Source of the DNA: a virus
Reading direction: 5' to 3' (one strand)
Length of the DNA: 22,592 bases
Virus record (IMG/VR): IMGVR_UViG_3300044617_000670
Span: 1 to 22,592 of that record
The notes under the pieces were generated by a model that saw nothing but the letters and a program-made list of their open reading frames with translations, did not search any database and was not told the DNA's origin. Position numbers and translations under genes: made by a program. The first letter of the stretch is position 1. Every line of letters starts with the position of its first letter. Shown piece by piece: positions 5,770 to 13,713 of the stretch.

Positions 5770-6735
5770 TTATTGCGCCGCACCAAGCGCACGCAGGCGC
5801 TGCTGGTAGCCGGCCAGGTGCTTGGCCTTCCAGATCACATCCACCCGCTTGAGCAGGCCTTCGTTGGCCTCCTTGAGCTCGCGCAGCTTGGTCATGCGGT
5901 CACGCGCCGGCACCTTGCCCGCCTTGGCGGTCTTGTCGGACAGCTCTTCATACGCCGCCGCCCACTCATCTAGGTTGGCATGGGTGCTAAAGGGCGTTTC
6001 CCTGCCAGGCACCATCAAGGCAAACCCAGCCGCCTCACTGACCTGCGGCTCGCGCTCGACCGTCACCGCATCTGTGATCTGTTGCTCTACAGCAACAGTC
6101 TCCACCTGCTCGATGACTGCCTCGACCAGCACGGGATCTGCCGGCGGGGCCAGCGCGTCCAGTGGGTTGGCGGGCGTGATGTCGCGGGCCTGGCGCGGCT
6201 TGTCCTCGCTCGGGTAGTCCTGGGCCTCCTCGGCGGTGATCAGGCCCTTGAGCACATCGGGGAAGGCATCGCGCAGGGCAAAGCCTCTCGCCCGCATGGC
6301 CAGCATCCGCTTGGGGTAGGCCTGCCATGGCCCCTGCTTGCCCCATAGGCCGGCCCGCTTGGCGTCCTCGACGCTGAATGTGGAGCGCACCGGCTTGCGC
6401 CCCTTGCGGTGGGCCACGCAGACAGCGATGAGGTTGGTAGTGCCCTCGCCTTCGATGAACTCCTCGACGCCTTCGCACAGGGGGCTGGCCTGCACCAGGG
6501 CCATGGCTGCGTCACCGTAGACCGAGGGTTTGCCGTTGATGACGGCGATGTTCTGCAGCGCCTGCAGCGGGGCCAGGCCCAGCTCCATGCCCCATTGCAC
6601 ACAGACCATGATGTCCTGCGGTTTGCCCTGGTACTGCTTGGGCACCATCTGGCTGGAGGCCAGCATCTCGCTGAACTGGATGGCCTCGGTGATGGTGGTG
6701 GGCGCAAAGCCCTGGCGGGTAGTGGTCAGTTGCAT
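5770..6735 (-). CDS. recT: RecT-family single-strand annealing protein
   Basis: Binds single-stranded DNA and anneals complementary strands in phage recombination. The first 200 residues carry a RecT-like core: FSEMLASSQMVPKQYQGKP, then MELGLAPLQALQNIAVINGK, VYGDAAMALV, EGVEEFIEGEG and SVEDAKRAGLWGKQGPW with YPKRMLAMRARGFALRDAF. The remaining 120 residues form an acidic, Pro/Ala-rich linker and a charged helical tail, not part of the usual core. It is the last gene of the leftward operon, downstream of the partner exonuclease and overlapping the 59-aa gene by 10 bases. The pairing with a YqaJ-type nuclease strongly supports the assignment. Confidence 0.9.
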   Translation of the reverse strand: MQLTTTRQGFAPTTITEAIQFSEMLASSQMVPKQYQGKPQDIMVCVQWGMELGLAPLQALQNIAVINGKPSVYGDAAMALVQASPLCEGVEEFIEGEGTTNLIAVCVAHRKGRKPVRSTFSVEDAKRAGLWGKQGPWQAYPKRMLAMRARGFALRDAFPDVLKGLITAEEAQDYPSEDKPRQARDITPANPLDALAPPADPVLVEAVIEQVETVAVEQQITDAVTVEREPQVSEAAGFALMVPGRETPFSTHANLDEWAAAYEELSDKTAKAGKVPARDRMTKLRELKEANEGLLKRVDVIWKAKHLAGYQQRLRALGAAQ

Positions 6736-6905
6736 TTCATGTCTCCTTCGTTTGGCAGGTACTCTTTGATTGTTTGGAAGACCAAGGCGACGATGGAGGT
6801 AATGACCTCATCGGCCTCCTCCTCGGTCATGTCGGTTGCGTTGAGCAGCGCCACCAGCGCTCGGTTGTGGGCCTCCATGATGGCCGGCATACCTTCGTCC
6901 CTCAT
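6726..6905 (-). CDS. Small acidic helical protein between exonuclease and recT (59 aa)
   Basis: An ATG overlapping the stop of the exonuclease gene (ATGA, 6902-6905) opens a 59-codon frame that ends inside the start of recT. This kind of overlap on both sides is typical of real genes in this genome. The product is acidic and helical (NATDMTEEEADEVITSIVAL) and has no membrane segment. I do not recognise the family. The final codons contain a ribosome site for recT (GAAGGAGA), so translating this gene may help load ribosomes on recT. It could be a small partner of the exonuclease/annealase pair; that is inference. Confidence 0.6.
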   Translation of the reverse strand: MRDEGMPAIMEAHNRALVALLNATDMTEEEADEVITSIVALVFQTIKEYLPNEGDMKCN

Positions 6906-7864
6906 GCTTTCACCGGCTTGATGGTCAGGGTGGATTGACGGATGGTGTAGGCCTCCTTGGCCGGCACCATCTTGGCGGGCTGCGCCTGGTAGTGGCGGGT
7001 CGAGCGGATGATCTGGTACTGGCCGGCGATGCCCATCTCGGCCTTGCCCAGGATCTCCTTGAGCTTCTCCTCATCAGCGTCCAGGTCGGTCTGCAGCTTC
7101 TTGATCTCCTTGCGCTTGGCCAGGATCTTCTCGGCCCGCTCGATGCAGCTGTCATCCAGCACAGCAGGTACCGGGATGATGGGGTAGACGCCTCGGGTGT
7201 CTGGCCATTGCTCGCCCTCTGCCGGCGGGTAGTAGTCCACCAGGCCTGTCGTTTTCCATTCATCCAGCCGGCGCTGGAAGTCGATGGCCACCTCTGCAAT
7301 TTTTTTGACCGTTGCCTGGTGGGGAGCGAACACGAATACGCGCAGCTCGGTGCCCCGGTACAGGGTGCAGACCGCACCCCACTTGGCCTGCACGATGTCC
7401 ATCTGGGCCTGCAGCTGGATGGGGCCGCGCCACAAGGGCGGCACATCATCGGGCGGCATGGCCGTCAGCTTGGCCTCAAGCACCCCGACGCCGTCCAGTG
7501 TGATGCTGTCCTGGCCGATGACGTACACGCCGGCAGCCGGGTCGGTGCTGATGACCTGGCCACGCCCGTCTGCCGTGCCGTCCAGGCTGCAGCACAGGGG
7601 CAGGCTTTCGTGATACCGGGCGACCGGGTGATCGGTGACCATGTCGGTCAGCTCCAGCCGGCGGGCCGCGTCCTCCAGGATCAGCGGCTCCATGATGTTG
7701 CCCCAGGCCATGGCCTCATTGCCGATGTCCCGGCGCTCCTCGCCCTTGAGGGCGCGGATGCTGTATTCCAGCTCATCGTTGGGGGTCTGGTAGCGGCTGA
7801 TGCCCATGATGCCTGGCAGGCGGGATGCCGACAGCATGGTGTCGGGGGTGACTTTATTGACCAT
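6902..7864 (-). CDS. YqaJ-type viral exonuclease (lambda-exo-like, PD-(D/E)XK)
   Basis: Resects double-stranded DNA ends to make the single strands that RecT anneals. The N-terminus LSASRLPGIMGISRYQTPND is typical of YqaJ proteins. The nuclease core shows Glu59 (WGNIMEPLILE), Asp95 (SLDGTADG), Glu130-x-Lys132 (GVLEAKLT) and a Gln-rich helix (PIQLQAQMDI), matching the PD-(D/E)XK layout. At 320 residues with a C-terminal charged helical region (about 235-275) it is near the usual family length. It overlaps the 104-aa gene upstream by 11 bases and the 59-aa gene downstream by 4. It acts in the cytoplasm on phage DNA. Confidence 0.88.
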   Translation of the reverse strand: MVNKVTPDTMLSASRLPGIMGISRYQTPNDELEYSIRALKGEERRDIGNEAMAWGNIMEPLILEDAARRLELTDMVTDHPVARYHESLPLCCSLDGTADGRGQVISTDPAAGVYVIGQDSITLDGVGVLEAKLTAMPPDDVPPLWRGPIQLQAQMDIVQAKWGAVCTLYRGTELRVFVFAPHQATVKKIAEVAIDFQRRLDEWKTTGLVDYYPPAEGEQWPDTRGVYPIIPVPAVLDDSCIERAEKILAKRKEIKKLQTDLDADEEKLKEILGKAEMGIAGQYQIIRSTRHYQAQPAKMVPAKEAYTIRQSTLTIKPVKA

Positions 7865-8394: not shown

Positions 8395-9063
8395 TCAGTT
8401 GCCGATGCGTTTGAGCAGGTTGGACACCTGGCTCGGGTTCCAGTTGATGTTGCCGCGAGGGGTTTCGATGCCGCGAGCGGTCAGAGCTGCAGCGATGTCG
8501 CGCAGGGTGCAGGCACCCGACTTGCGGACGATGTCCTGCACCAGGGGGCCAACGCGCTCGGCGTACCGGTCGGCCTTGGCCTGGATCTTGGCGATGCCCA
8601 AGGCGCTGCCGACCTCGGGAGTAGGGCAGCCCAGCTGGCGGCCCTGCGCCTTGACCTGGGCCAGGGCGGCCTTGGTGCGCTCGGAGATCTTGCGGGCCTC
8701 CCATTCAGCAAAGACGGCCATCATCTGCAGGAAGGTGCGGTCAGCCTCGGGCATATCGGCGCAGACAAAGGGGACAGAGCTTTCCAGCAGGCCGCTGATG
8801 AAGTGGACGTTACGGGCCAGGCGGTCGAGCTTGGCGATCACCAGGGTGGCCTTTGTACGCTTGGCCAGGCTCAGGGCGTGAGCCAGCTGCTCGCGGTCAT
8901 TCTTGCGGCCAGACTCCACCTCGGTGAACTCGGCCACCAGCTCGGCCTGGCCGATGTGGCGGGCAACGGCCTCGCGCTGGGCATCCAGGCCCAGGCCGCT
9001 CTGGCCCTGCTTGTCGGTCGAAACTCGGTAGTACGCGACGAACTTGCCGGTGTGCGGGGTCAT
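8395..9063 (-). CDS. Small serine recombinase / resolvase
   Basis: Cuts and rejoins DNA through a serine-phosphate intermediate. The start is taken at the ATG giving MTPHTGKFVAYYRVSTDKQ; a longer upstream frame would overlap the preceding gene. The catalytic domain shows Ser15 in YYRVSTDKQ, Arg13, the AKLDRLARN motif (about residues 77-85, with the conserved arginines) and the long E-helix AEWEARKISERTKAAL (about 119-134). The C-terminus (about 175-222, TLRDIAAALTARGI, WNPSQVSNLLKRIG) is a helix-turn-helix. At 222 residues it has the size of resolvases and invertases, not of large serine integrases. It lies in the recombination operon. Whether it resolves multimers, inverts a segment or integrates is not shown; no inverted crossover sites were seen. 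Confidence 0.9.
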   Translation of the reverse strand: MTPHTGKFVAYYRVSTDKQGQSGLGLDAQREAVARHIGQAELVAEFTEVESGRKNDREQLAHALSLAKRTKATLVIAKLDRLARNVHFISGLLESSVPFVCADMPEADRTFLQMMAVFAEWEARKISERTKAALAQVKAQGRQLGCPTPEVGSALGIAKIQAKADRYAERVGPLVQDIVRKSGACTLRDIAAALTARGIETPRGNINWNPSQVSNLLKRIGN

Positions 9064-9065
9064 AA

Positions 9066-9326
9066 TCAGGCTCCCAAGCTGTAGCCGAACATGAAGGCAG
9101 GCAGGGACTGCGTGCGAATCAGGCTGCGGCGGGTGCTGGGGTGGAGGTAGGCAACGTCCATCCACTTGTTGTGCGCCTCAATTGCAACGTCATGCTCCAG
9201 CAGGGCTGCTTGCGTGAGCTTGTCATTGCCGCCAAAGGTGGTGGCGTACAGCGCGTGGCGGGTCAGTGCGAGCTTGGCAGCGTGGCGAGCTGCCTCTGCA
9301 CGGGCGATGGCTTCTTGCTTGGTCAT
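9066..9326 (-). CDS. First gene of the recombination operon, unknown (86 aa)
   Basis: A gene with a good ribosome site (AGGAG, about 8 bases before the ATG in the leftward direction), read from the promoter at 9383-9410. The product is helical and Ala/His-rich (EAIARAEAARHAAKLALTRH) with no membrane segment or motif I recognise. It ends two bases before the serine recombinase start, so the two are co-transcribed and probably co-translated. As the promoter-proximal gene it would be the most highly expressed member of the operon. A role with the recombinase or as a small regulator is speculation. Confidence 0.6.
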   Translation of the reverse strand: MTKQEAIARAEAARHAAKLALTRHALYATTFGGNDKLTQAALLEHDVAIEAHNKWMDVAYLHPSTRRSLIRTQSLPAFMFGYSLGA

Positions 9327-11174: not shown

Positions 11175-11308
11175 ATGAAGATCAGAACGGGTATTGGTGC
11201 GTCATCTGCGGAAGGTTCCTGCCTGCCGACGATGACGGCGTCATCGTGCATGACGACATCGAACACCCTTCGGAGATGGCGTTCGACGATGAGGACAAGC
11301 CGCAATGA
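11171..11308 (+). CDS. Small Zn-ribbon-like acidic protein (45 aa)
   Basis: ATGA overlaps on both sides. The product begins MNEDQNGYWCVICGRFLP: the C-x-x-C pair (WCVICG), a DDDGVIVHDDIEHP segment with two His residues, and an acidic tail (FDDEDKPQ). The Cys pair plus the two histidines could bind one zinc ion. This short protein type is recurrent in phage early regions, where it is otherwise uncharacterised. Its acidity suggests a protein partner, perhaps the sigma-like protein next door, but this is inference. Confidence 0.6.
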   Translation: MNEDQNGYWCVICGRFLPADDDGVIVHDDIEHPSEMAFDDEDKPQ

Positions 11309-11736
11309 CCAACATGAGCAGAGGCAGGGGCACGCCCTGGTACGGCAAGCTGATGACCGAAAGCCTGCCCAGCGAGGTCAAGCACATCTGGTACAGCCGG
11401 GACGAGGAGCTGCCAGAGCTTCCACGGCACCGTTGGTCATGGGAGCTGCAGACGGACATGGGGCTGGTGGAGGCCAAGGATCTGCTGTTCAAGATCCTGG
11501 CCGATGCGCCGCTGACTGACCGGGAGATGCTGGCTGTCAGACTGATCGCGCATGAGGAAGCCACCCTGAAGGAGGCCGGCGAGCAGCTCGATTGCACGGT
11601 CGAGCGGGCCAGGCAGATCTACATGAAGGCCATGCGGAAGTTGCGCCAGCACCAGGCCAAGATCACCGGCGTGAAGGTGTGGGAAGTCGATTGCGAAGTC
11701 ACGACATGGCGTTCTTGGCGCAGGTGGTGCAGATGA
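11305..11736 (+). CDS. Sigma-70 region-4-like regulatory protein (143 aa)
   Basis: Residues about 70-115 (LTDREMLAVRLIAHEEATLK, then AGEQLDCTVERARQIYMKAM and RKLRQH) match the region-4 helix-turn-helix of sigma-70 factors, including the RxRQI..KA(M/L)RKLR end of the recognition helix. The N-terminal 69 residues (WSWELQTDMGLVEAKDLLF) show no region-2 or region-3 motif, so it cannot act as a full sigma factor. It probably recognises a -35-type element or modifies host polymerase, as phage sigma-like activators do. The last 20 residues are Trp/Arg-rich (TTWRSWRRWCR). It lies in the early region before the origin gene; target promoters are unknown. Confidence 0.7.
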   Translation: MTNMSRGRGTPWYGKLMTESLPSEVKHIWYSRDEELPELPRHRWSWELQTDMGLVEAKDLLFKILADAPLTDREMLAVRLIAHEEATLKEAGEQLDCTVERARQIYMKAMRKLRQHQAKITGVKVWEVDCEVTTWRSWRRWCR

Positions 11737-11945
11737 GCCTCTCCGATCACCAGGTTTTCATGCTCAAGCACTTCGCCATGGGCTGGCGGTTCAAGCTGAC
11801 CAACAACGTACCCGGCAGCTGGAACACCTACTGGTCGCTGCGCCGCCGTGGCCTGGTGAGCGCCGGCAGCATCGTGACCGACCTGGGCCGCAAGGTGCTG
11901 GCCAAGGAGCTGCAGCTGCAGGCCAAGCGGGAGGCCAAGCCATGA
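11733..11945 (+). CDS. Small winged-helix-like protein (70 aa)
   Basis: The start is the ATG overlapping the sigma-like gene's stop (ATGA). The product MSLSDHQVFMLKHFAMGWRF continues with NVPGSWNTYWSLRRRGLVS and IVTDLGRKVL. The pattern of a helix, a turn with a W-x-x-Y-W-x-L-x-x-R-G-L recognition helix and a wing ending in LGRKVL fits a small winged-helix fold, so DNA binding is likely. Such small proteins are common in phage early regions. No target is known. It is coupled to the next gene by ATGA. Confidence 0.6.
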   Translation: MSLSDHQVFMLKHFAMGWRFKLTNNVPGSWNTYWSLRRRGLVSAGSIVTDLGRKVLAKELQLQAKREAKP

Positions 11946-12172
11946 AGCGCCCATGGAAGCCCTGGTACCCCAAACACAGCGGCCCCCTGCCCGATCGCTG
12001 GGTGATGGAGCGCGGGGCTGCCAGGGAGCTGCTGACCACCTGGGAGCTGACCAAGGACAAGGCCCTGGTGGACAAGCACCTGGCCCGCATGGACAAGCTG
12101 TACGGCAAGGGTGCCGAGGAGCGCATCCGGGCCTACATGAGAGAGATCCGCAGGAATGAGCGCCTTGCCTGA
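11942..12172 (+). CDS. Basic small protein of unknown function (76 aa)
   Basis: Begins ATGA at the previous stop and overlaps the replication gene by 17 bases. The product is basic and Trp/Pro-rich at the N-terminus (MKRPWKPWYPKHSGPLPDRW) with helical remainder (EERIRAYMREIRRNERLA). I recognise no family. Possibly a nucleic-acid binding protein of the early region by charge, but no motif supports that. Confidence 0.55.
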   Translation: MKRPWKPWYPKHSGPLPDRWVMERGAARELLTTWELTKDKALVDKHLARMDKLYGKGAEERIRAYMREIRRNERLA

Positions 12173-13073
12173 CAACATCGTCGCCTTTCAGCTGCCCAAG
12201 CGCCCCAAGGTGCGCGAGAAGCAAGCCCCGCCAGACCAGCGCACGCTGTGCGTGCTGCCCTTCCGAGCGGTGGCCGACAAGCAGCTAACCGACGGGGCCT
12301 TGCGCGTCCTGGCGGCCATCTGCAGCTACTGCAACCGAGCCGGCATCACCTGGGTCAGCCAGGCCAAGATCGCCAAGGATCTGGGCGTCACCCAGCAGGC
12401 CATCAGCAAGCACGCCAAGCTGCTGGTCAGCCTGGGCTACCTGCAGATCGTGCGCAAAGGGTTCAGGGGCGAGCGCTCCAACACCATCCGCGTGATCTTC
12501 GATCCCACCGTGGACACAGACACCGCCATCGCCATCACCAGCGCACAGGAAGACACCAGGCCACCAGCCATGCAAGACACACCAGACCCAGCCGGCCAGG
12601 CACGCATCGCAAGCCTGATCGCCAAAGCCTTCAAGACACCACCAACCGAAAGGAAGACCATGCCAAAGACAGGCGAAACCAGGACAGTCAAAGCCATCAG
12701 AGAGGCCAACCAGAAGGCCACCAGGAAGCGCACATACACAACCCCAGAGGTTGTACATGAAGAGGCAGTTATCCACAGCCCACATACACAACCTGAGAGC
12801 CCTCCATACACAACCTCAGAGGTTGTGAGAAACACAGAGAACACAGGTATAGATAAGGTTAAGAGTAAGAGTATTAATACAGCTATAGGTGTTCTAGACA
12901 ACCTGAGCGCAGAGCAGCGAGCCGAGGTCGCAGCCGCCGGCGTGACCGACACCGAGGCCGGCCAGGCGCTGCAGCTGCTGCTCGACGCCTACCGAGCCGA
13001 GGGCATCACGCCCAATCCCGACCGCCTGGCAGCCGAGGTGATCAGCCTGGCAGATGCTGGACGGATCCAATGA
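12156..13073 (+). CDS. Lambda O-like replication initiator with winged helix-turn-helix
   Basis: Residues about 40-115 form a winged helix: LTDGALRVLAAICSY, WVSQAKIAKDLGVTQQAISKHAKLL and a wing ending GERSNTIRVIF. This DNA-binding N-terminus is the layout of lambda O and related phage replication proteins. Residues about 130-250 form a polar low-complexity linker, and the C-terminal part (about 250-305) is a small helical domain (SAEQRAEVAAAG, ALQLLLDAYRAEG) that might contact a partner. The linker DNA holds three iterons, a DnaA box and an AT-rich segment, so the gene probably contains the origin it binds. It starts inside the preceding gene; no helicase loader follows. A plain transcription regulator is the alternative. 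Confidence 0.75.
   Translation: MSALPDNIVAFQLPKRPKVREKQAPPDQRTLCVLPFRAVADKQLTDGALRVLAAICSYCNRAGITWVSQAKIAKDLGVTQQAISKHAKLLVSLGYLQIVRKGFRGERSNTIRVIFDPTVDTDTAIAITSAQEDTRPPAMQDTPDPAGQARIASLIAKAFKTPPTERKTMPKTGETRTVKAIREANQKATRKRTYTTPEVVHEEAVIHSPHTQPESPPYTTSEVVRNTENTGIDKVKSKSINTAIGVLDNLSAEQRAEVAAAGVTDTEAGQALQLLLDAYRAEGITPNPDRLAAEVISLADAGRIQ
12733..12815 (+). repeat. Three 11-bp iterons inside the replication gene
   Basis: The sequence CATACACAACC occurs exactly at 12733-12743, 12783-12793 and 12805-12815. Copies 1 and 3 are followed by matching inverted arms (ACAACC-n5-GGTTGT at 12738-12754, and CACAACC-n5-GGTTGTG at 12809-12827), while copy 2 is a half site. Copy 2 is in a different reading frame from copies 1 and 3 (offsets 50 and 72 bases), so the repeat is conserved as DNA and not as protein. 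They are likely binding sites of the winged-helix protein they sit in. Confidence 0.7.
12769..12777 (+). promoter_or_regulatory. Perfect DnaA box
   Basis: TTATCCACA matches the bacterial high-affinity DnaA box consensus at all nine positions. It lies between iteron copies 1 and 2, in the middle of the replication gene, where a phage origin would be expected. A single 9-mer can occur by chance, but its placement among the iterons makes it credible. It suggests that host DnaA takes part in initiation. Confidence 0.65.
12841..12895. other. AT-rich segment beside the iterons (candidate unwinding element)
   Basis: Directly after the iterons the coding sequence turns AT-rich in a GC-rich genome. 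It contains a direct repeat AAGAGT-AAGAGT (12861-12872) and a perfect 10-bp palindrome GTATTAATAC (12871-12880). In lambda the AT-rich region likewise follows the iterons inside gene O. It encodes an uninformative stretch of linker, so its composition is better explained by DNA function. Melting during initiation is inference. Confidence 0.6.
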
Positions 13074-13428
13074 TGCCCAGCAAGGCCTCTGGAAGCCCGC
13101 AGGAGCGCCGATCAGGGGCTGGGTGGTACATGGGTAGCCTCACGCCATCGCAGCGCCTTGTAGGCCCTGTGTCGCAAACCCAGACGAACGTATGGGAATT
13201 GGACAAGGGGGGGTGCTTGGCGTGTCTGGAGCCAGGGGGGAGGGGCAGCGTGTGCCCAGGGAGCCAAAGGCCAACCATATGCGCGGGCGCATCGCGCAGG
13301 CGATACCGCGTGCGTTGCCGTGCGCGTGAAGGCACCCCTTGCCCCCCGCCCCTTGGCATATGCGAGCGGGGCCCTCGCCAAAATTTTCTTCACCTTTTCG
13401 ACGACAATCTTTTTTAAGGAGAACGTAA
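13074..13428. other. Gene-free region between replication gene and SSB-like gene
   Basis: About 355 bases with no convincing gene. A 115-codon frame overlaps the replication gene's stop but its product is Cys/Arg/Pro-rich with no recognisable order, and I do not call it. The region holds runs of G (13207-13213, 13235-13240, 13242-13245) and later runs of C (13335-13338, 13342-13347, 13349-13352). It also has a perfect inverted repeat ATGCGC-GG-GCGCAT (13279-13292) and a weak stem GCGAG-n7-CTCGC (13362-13378). CACCCCTTG at 13333-13341 could pair with CAAGGGGGGGTG at 13204-13215 apart from three looped Gs. It may carry RNA structure, an attenuator or part of the origin. Confidence 0.5.
13415..13421 (+). 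promoter_or_regulatory. Strong ribosome binding site of the SSB-like gene
   Basis: TAAGGAG lies seven bases before the ATG at 13429, nearly the full anti-Shine-Dalgarno match, while most genes here rely on overlaps. It follows a T-run (13410-13415) and suggests strong, independently initiated expression of the gene after the gene-free stretch. Confidence 0.7.
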
Positions 13429-13713
13429 ATGGCTACTAACTACGAGATGCGCCCTGGACAGGGGTCTGCTTTCAAGAACGACAAGAAGACTGAGGACTGG
13501 CACCCTGCCTACAAGGGTAAGGTGATGCTGCCTGATGGGTCACTGCACTGGCTGGACATCACGCCCAAGAAGACTAAGGCTGGTGACACCTGGATTGCGG
13601 TGAAGGTGGGCAACCAGATCCAGGGTGCTGCCCAGCCGATGGACGCGCACAACCAGGCCAAGGGCAATGGGTATCAGCCGCAGAAGGAGGACGACAGTGA
13701 CATCCCCTTCTGA
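13429..13713 (+). CDS. Putative single-stranded DNA-binding protein (94 aa)
   Basis: The product ends EDDSDIPF, an acidic tail like the DDDIPF end of bacterial SSB that binds partner proteins. The body (SAFKNDKKTEDWHPAYKGKV, LPDGSLHWLDITPKKTKAGD, WIAVKVGN) has the beta-strand rhythm of a small OB-like fold and matches short phage proteins with a FKN-x-K-x-x-E-x-H-P-x-Y-x-G start. It would coat single strands made at the origin or by the exonuclease. At 94 residues it is shorter than Escherichia coli SSB. It has the strongest ribosome site in the region, in line with the high need for an SSB. The function is inferred mainly from the tail and context. Confidence 0.6.
   Translation: MATNYEMRPGQGSAFKNDKKTEDWHPAYKGKVMLPDGSLHWLDITPKKTKAGDTWIAVKVGNQIQGAAQPMDAHNQAKGNGYQPQKEDDSDIPF
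13682..13690 (+). promoter_or_regulatory. Ribosome site that fixes a GTG start at 13697
   Basis: AGAAGGAGG sits six bases before GTG at 13697, inside the end of the SSB-like gene. The upstream ATG in the same frame (13667) lacks any such site. I therefore start the next gene at the GTG, giving a 17-base overlap with the SSB-like gene. Confidence 0.7.

Follow-up and report, generated by a model that had tools for sequence, protein, structure and literature searches.

A putative replication origin within the initiator gene of an environmental phage and its relatives

Origins located within initiator genes

In lambdoid phages, the O protein and the origin are type-specific. The lambda origin lies inside gene O and has inverted-repeat sites with an AT-rich stretch adjoining them (PMC5043065), and footprinting with DnaA has been reported at DnaA-box-like sites that lie near this origin, downstream of the lambda pO promoter (PMC3985674). 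In the pSK41-type RepA_N plasmids, the origin is central in rep, and the peptide coded there is a dispensable linker; the N-terminal winged helix-turn-helix (wHTH) of these initiators binds the sites, the C-terminal domain contacts host replication proteins, and DnaA boxes are reported as undetected (PMC5703833). The N-terminus of the hybrid pPR9 Rep is a pfam13730 HTH of phage type (PMC5703833). Gram-negative iteron plasmids (P1, R6K, pSC101, RK2) combine initiator sites, DnaA boxes and an AT-rich element, and their iterons are mostly direct repeats bound by monomers (PMC5043065).

The DNA considered here (the window) is the whole 22,592-nucleotide stretch of the viral record IMGVR_UViG_3300044617_000670. 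Judging from its sequence, positions 12733-12887 are very probably a phage replication origin, situated in the linker-coding part of the initiator gene, bound by that gene's own product and probably assisted by host DnaA. Like ori-lambda, this putative origin lies inside the initiator gene, has inverted-repeat sites of 18-19 bp and adjoins an AT-rich stretch. However, lambda has four tandem iterons, whereas the window has two full palindromes and a single half-site. Furthermore, a consensus DnaA box lies inside the array of the window, while the 2.5 kb of lambda examined contain no such box even with one mismatch allowed. Lambda also carries a P gene, while none is recognised in the window, and the initiator has no match to Pfam Phage_rep_O (PF04492), either in a scan of the protein or in a six-frame search of 13 records. 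Only the broader O-like profiles of PHROG match it. Of the lambda ori-in-O plan invoked by the first-pass annotation, the inverted-repeat iterons in an initiator gene beside an AT-rich stretch hold.

The pSK41 origin is likewise within rep, the top PDB matches of the window's protein include N-terminal structures of RepA, and the N-terminal HTH of pPR9 Rep belongs to the same Pfam family as the window's initiator. However, pSK41-type replicons are Gram-positive plasmids, and the window's initiator has neither a RepA_N match in the Pfam scan (pfam06970 / PF06970) nor a plasmid relative. The iteron plasmids P1, R6K, pSC101 and RK2 share with the window the combination of initiator sites, DnaA boxes and an AT-rich element, but they have Rep_3-type initiators, a match to which is absent from the Pfam scan of the window's protein. 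To our knowledge, these plasmids do not have their origins in the linker-coding sequence of the initiator gene. The best reading is that the window's origin would work like ori-lambda and the pSK41 origin, although its initiator is outside the Pfam lambda-O and RepA_N families. Given that initiator sites together with DnaA boxes are usual in Gram-negative iteron plasmids, and that DnaA has been footprinted near ori-lambda (PMC3985674), this arrangement is a variant rather than a new kind of origin, and there is some precedent for a link between DnaA and a phage origin.

Organisation of the sites

The initiator gene and the sites within it are as follows.

12156-13073, plus strand: replication initiator gene, 305 aa (Pfam, PHROG, AlphaFold model)
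12733-12759: inverted-repeat site 1, CATACACAACC-CCAGA-GGTTGTACATG, with a counterpart in nearly all relatives
12769-12777, plus strand: perfect DnaA box TTATCCACA; boxes are enriched in the linkers of relatives
12783-12793, plus strand: single half-site CATACACAACC (copy 2) in a shifted frame; a lone half-site between palindromes recurs in many relatives
12805-12827: inverted-repeat site 2, whose core CACAACCTCAGAGGTTGTG is a perfect 19-bp palindrome (12809-12827)
12828-12887: AT-rich stretch, putative unwinding element, 68% AT in a gene of 39% AT
12898-12903, plus strand: further ACAACC, a doubtful extra half-site within DNLSA codons, kept in close relatives

The first-pass annotation had pointed to an 11-mer occurring three times in the linker-coding part, and this is borne out: CATACACAACC has exact copies at 12733-12743, 12783-12793 and 12805-12815, and no other copy in the 22.6 kb record. 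Their offsets in the gene (577, 627 and 649) give frames 1, 0 and 1, so that copy 2 is indeed out of frame with the other two. Copies 1 and 3 extend into inverted arms, as had been proposed: copy 1 is followed, after a 5-base spacer, by GGTTGTACATG at 12749-12759, and copy 3 runs into CACAACCTCAGAGGTTGTG. The term iterons was therefore apt in that the repeat is real, but what is repeated is an inverted-repeat half-site and not a plain direct iteron. The DnaA box noted between copies 1 and 2 is present, is the sole perfect one in the window, and lies 27 bp from the centre of site 1. The AT-rich stretch reported after the sites shares with one other 60-mer the highest AT content in the window. 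It contains the expected perfect palindrome, GTATTAATAC, at 12871-12880, which is broken in the relative L007 and is not treated as essential. A better description of the array is a pair of inverted-repeat sites with one single half-site and a DnaA box, and an AT-rich stretch after them. The additional ACAACC at 12898-12903 may be of chance or coding origin. As single-stranded DNA, 12733-12825 folds strongly (z -4 to -5), as the inverted repeats lead one to expect.

The linker is A/C-rich and predicted to be disordered, a setting in which repeats could arise by chance or through coding in low-complexity sequence. The copies are, however, in different frames, and among 20,000 protein-preserving codon shuffles of the initiator gene only 9 give any 11-mer three times; as many inverted pairs are reached in 124 of 20,000. 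Together with the conservation across 66 loci, against empty flanks (see below), this makes a chance or coding origin of the repeats barely credible. The DnaA box appears in 8.6% of shuffles of this gene, and is thus not unusual alone; across the family it is unusual.

The initiator protein

The protein matches Pfam HTH_36 (E 2e-10), with the wHTH at approximately residues 36-114 and QQAISKH as the recognition helix. It also matches PHROG replication initiation and O-like profiles, and phrog_270 is matched by all 50 of 50 homologues. An AlphaFold model built from 50 homologues has a mean pLDDT of 73; the wHTH is confident, residues 192-243 are of low confidence and probably form a disordered linker, and a helical C-terminal domain is predicted at residues 238-300. 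Residues 192-243 are encoded by bases 12729-12884, and so the disordered linker coincides with the putative origin.

A sequence search of the PDB returned generic wHTH proteins only. In the fold search, the best matches to the model include, weakly (E about 2e-3), the N-terminal domain of staphylococcal plasmid RepA; none is below 1e-3. The entries concerned (4pql, 4pt7 and 5kbj), labelled in the search as DNA-binding protein, initiator and Rep-DNA complex, we take to be RepA.

MarR/CodY-like wHTH folds are common among the structure-search matches, which would also suit an operator cluster through which the winged-helix protein represses or roadblocks its own gene, with replication starting elsewhere. 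Such regulation would explain binding to the own gene equally well. However, the sites lie mid-gene beside an AT-rich stretch, and a promoter and terminator scan of 11900-13500 found no promoter-like site (and no terminator). Given also that DnaA boxes are co-enriched with the sites and that the protein matches replication-initiation families, an operator cluster is improbable.

Conservation of the plan in relatives

More than a hundred loci were recovered by scanning viral contigs, and these were reduced to 66 non-redundant genes. Nearly all of these relatives have two or three inverted repeats in the linker-coding region and an AT-rich stretch past the last, and a single half-site between the inverted repeats is frequent. 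The AT-richest 50-mer of the gene lies after site 2 in nearly all. The letters of the half-site vary by group, being ACAACC, GCAACC, GGACAC, GTCAACC or GACAACA. Inverted pairs of the locus's own class number 93 in 35 kb of initiator linkers, against 0 in 347 kb of flanks; protein-preserving codon shuffles give 7.2 on average and at most 16 in 1000 trials. The count of 93 is somewhat favoured because the classes were defined on the loci that were counted, although flanks and shuffles were scored with the same classes. The sites are thus conserved beyond coding need. A comparison of homologues had been suggested as a check, and it shows that sites and box persist where the linker peptide and the half-site sequence differ. 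By contrast, the GC-skew inflection that had been anticipated at the site was not seen: there is no origin-like minimum there in the window or in four related records, in a measure that is weak and confounded in phages.

No relative was confirmed in a bacterial genome collection, and plasmids gave no match. The sole match in a named phage is to Methylophilales phage MEP301; it covers the wHTH only, and the MEP301 protein (gp55) is short. Reading of the MEP301 sequence by eye revealed no comparable array, and the stretch examined has no perfect DnaA box. No description of this family was found among the open-access search results that were read.

Co-variation of recognition helix and half-site

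The half-site follows the recognition helix. Where the first residue of the helix is Q, the half-site is ACAACC (31 of 31). Helices that start with R and have N at position 6 go with GGACAC (12/13), and other R-first helices with GCAACC (12/13). K-first helices are split between GTCAACC (5/9) and GACAACA (4/9). The exceptions to the rule are L061 and L066, which have no clear half-site class. On a tree built without the helix and linker columns, Q versus non-Q and ACAACC versus other half-sites changed jointly in 7/7 independent pairs on supported branches (median p 0.016); the sub-rule for R with N at position 6 rests on 1-2 independent pairs. Over the tree columns, the window shares 89% identity with L005, yet the window combines QQAISKH with ACAACC and L005 combines RQAITNQ with GGACAC.

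This pattern is expected if the initiator binds the sites in its own gene, and in related phages the initiator protein and its sites have changed jointly. Exchange of a cassette of helix plus origin between phages would give the same pattern. Clustered inverted repeats also occur in partition and packaging sites, and a centromere-like or packaging site could merely lie in the initiator gene. This is very improbable, since changes in the sites track the recognition helix encoded by the gene in which they lie, and annotation places the family among initiators. In the GGACAC-class origins, the linkers of L005-L007 still have, between the palindromes, one single half-site of the GCAACC type (CATAGGCAACC), which may be left over from an earlier specificity.

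DnaA boxes

Unlike the half-site classes, the DnaA box consensus was fixed before counting. The 35 kb that code for the linkers and C-terminal parts contain 27 copies of the perfect box TTATCCACA (in 26 of the 66 loci), against a single copy in 348 kb elsewhere; protein-preserving codon shuffles across the family give 1.9 on average and 6 at most. With the relaxed form TTRTCCACA, there are 47 boxes in 43 loci, where the shuffles predict 4.3. Consensus DnaA boxes in the origin therefore exceed coding or chance expectation. They lie on either side of the first inverted repeat, their distance from it taking one of a few values, and some form tandem pairs spaced 12 bp apart. Over their full length, the records of L005 and L007 each have a single TTRTCCACA, which is inside the initiator gene.

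From these boxes we infer direct use of host DnaA by the phage origin, which is probably assisted by it. Given that 23/66 loci lack TTRTCCACA, not every member of the family can require the box. These absences are also in keeping with a narrower alternative, namely that the sites form an origin but TTATCCACA is a by-product of the peptide VD(N/K), or the site of another protein, and is not used by DnaA. This alternative bears on a single step of the proposed mechanism, with which it overlaps. Forward boxes occur in two representatives, the window and L008, and the boxes of the rest are in reverse orientation; the reverse boxes are in one frame and code VD(N/K), so that part of their conservation could be that of the peptide. 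However, codon shuffles that keep the peptide fail to reproduce it, the forward boxes of the window and L008 are on the other strand and code VIHS, and boxes are nearly absent from the rest of the genomes. That the box is not a DnaA site is thus unlikely, although this reading deserves to be kept in mind.

Proposed initiation mechanism

The first-pass annotation had remarked that no lambda P-like loader gene follows the initiator. In agreement with this, lambda-P, IstB/DnaC and DnaB_C (PF06992, PF01695, PF03796) have no match in the 13 records searched, which comprise that of the window and 12 from relatives (33-35 kb) and may be incomplete. It is possible that the phage has a loader of an unrecognised type.

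In the mechanism favoured here, the winged-helix initiator would bind both inverted repeats, probably as dimers, as well as the single half-site. Host DnaA would bind the box between the inverted repeats and assist, and the assembled complex would open the adjacent AT-rich stretch. Because the phage has no recognisable helicase or lambda-P/DnaC loader, the loading of host DnaB at the opened stretch is assigned to the C-terminal domain of the initiator and/or to DnaA.

More broadly, and more tentatively, these loci may represent a widespread, almost uncharacterised environmental phage family in which origins are intragenic, helix and iterons change jointly according to a short code, and a phage helicase loader is replaced by host DnaA; this is a reasonable conjecture on which the balance tips slightly to the negative. 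The relatives provide a natural series of initiator/origin pairs whose specificity appears to have changed repeatedly, which makes a recognition code directly testable. They also suggest a plan for a phage origin that places a host DnaA box among the phage sites without a recognisable phage loader, and indicate that origins of environmental phages can be found by sequence alone.

Neighbouring genes and a conserved downstream element

The surroundings of the initiator gene contain the following.

5770-7864 and 8395-9165, minus strand: RecT-like annealing protein and YqaJ/RecE-like exonuclease (Pfam/PHROG)
11305-11736: 143-aa protein with a sigma-70 region 4 domain (Pfam E 2e-11)
11942-12172: 76-aa ORF overlapping the initiator start
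13178-13203: conserved DNA element
13429-13713: SSB-like gene, the next conserved gene after the initiator

The 76-aa ORF has relatives in 42/66 loci, mostly just upstream of the initiator, and no Pfam or PHROG match; it is a candidate loader or regulator.

The gap between the initiator and the SSB-like gene (13074-13428) holds a conserved element consisting of CCCAGACGAACGTATGGG followed by TTGGACA (TTyTGTACA in relatives). It is near-palindromic around ACGAACGT and lies about 105-125 bp past the initiator stop in most of the 66 loci. It is single-copy in each of the five genomes whose records were checked, with two mismatches in one of them. Rfam gave no match for it. The element may serve as a promoter or as a site for a protein, or may itself belong to the replication region.

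Relatives of the sigma-70 region 4 protein lie upstream of the initiator in 27 loci. The RecT-like and YqaJ/RecE-like genes adjoin a serine recombinase of the resolvase/invertase type, on the minus strand.
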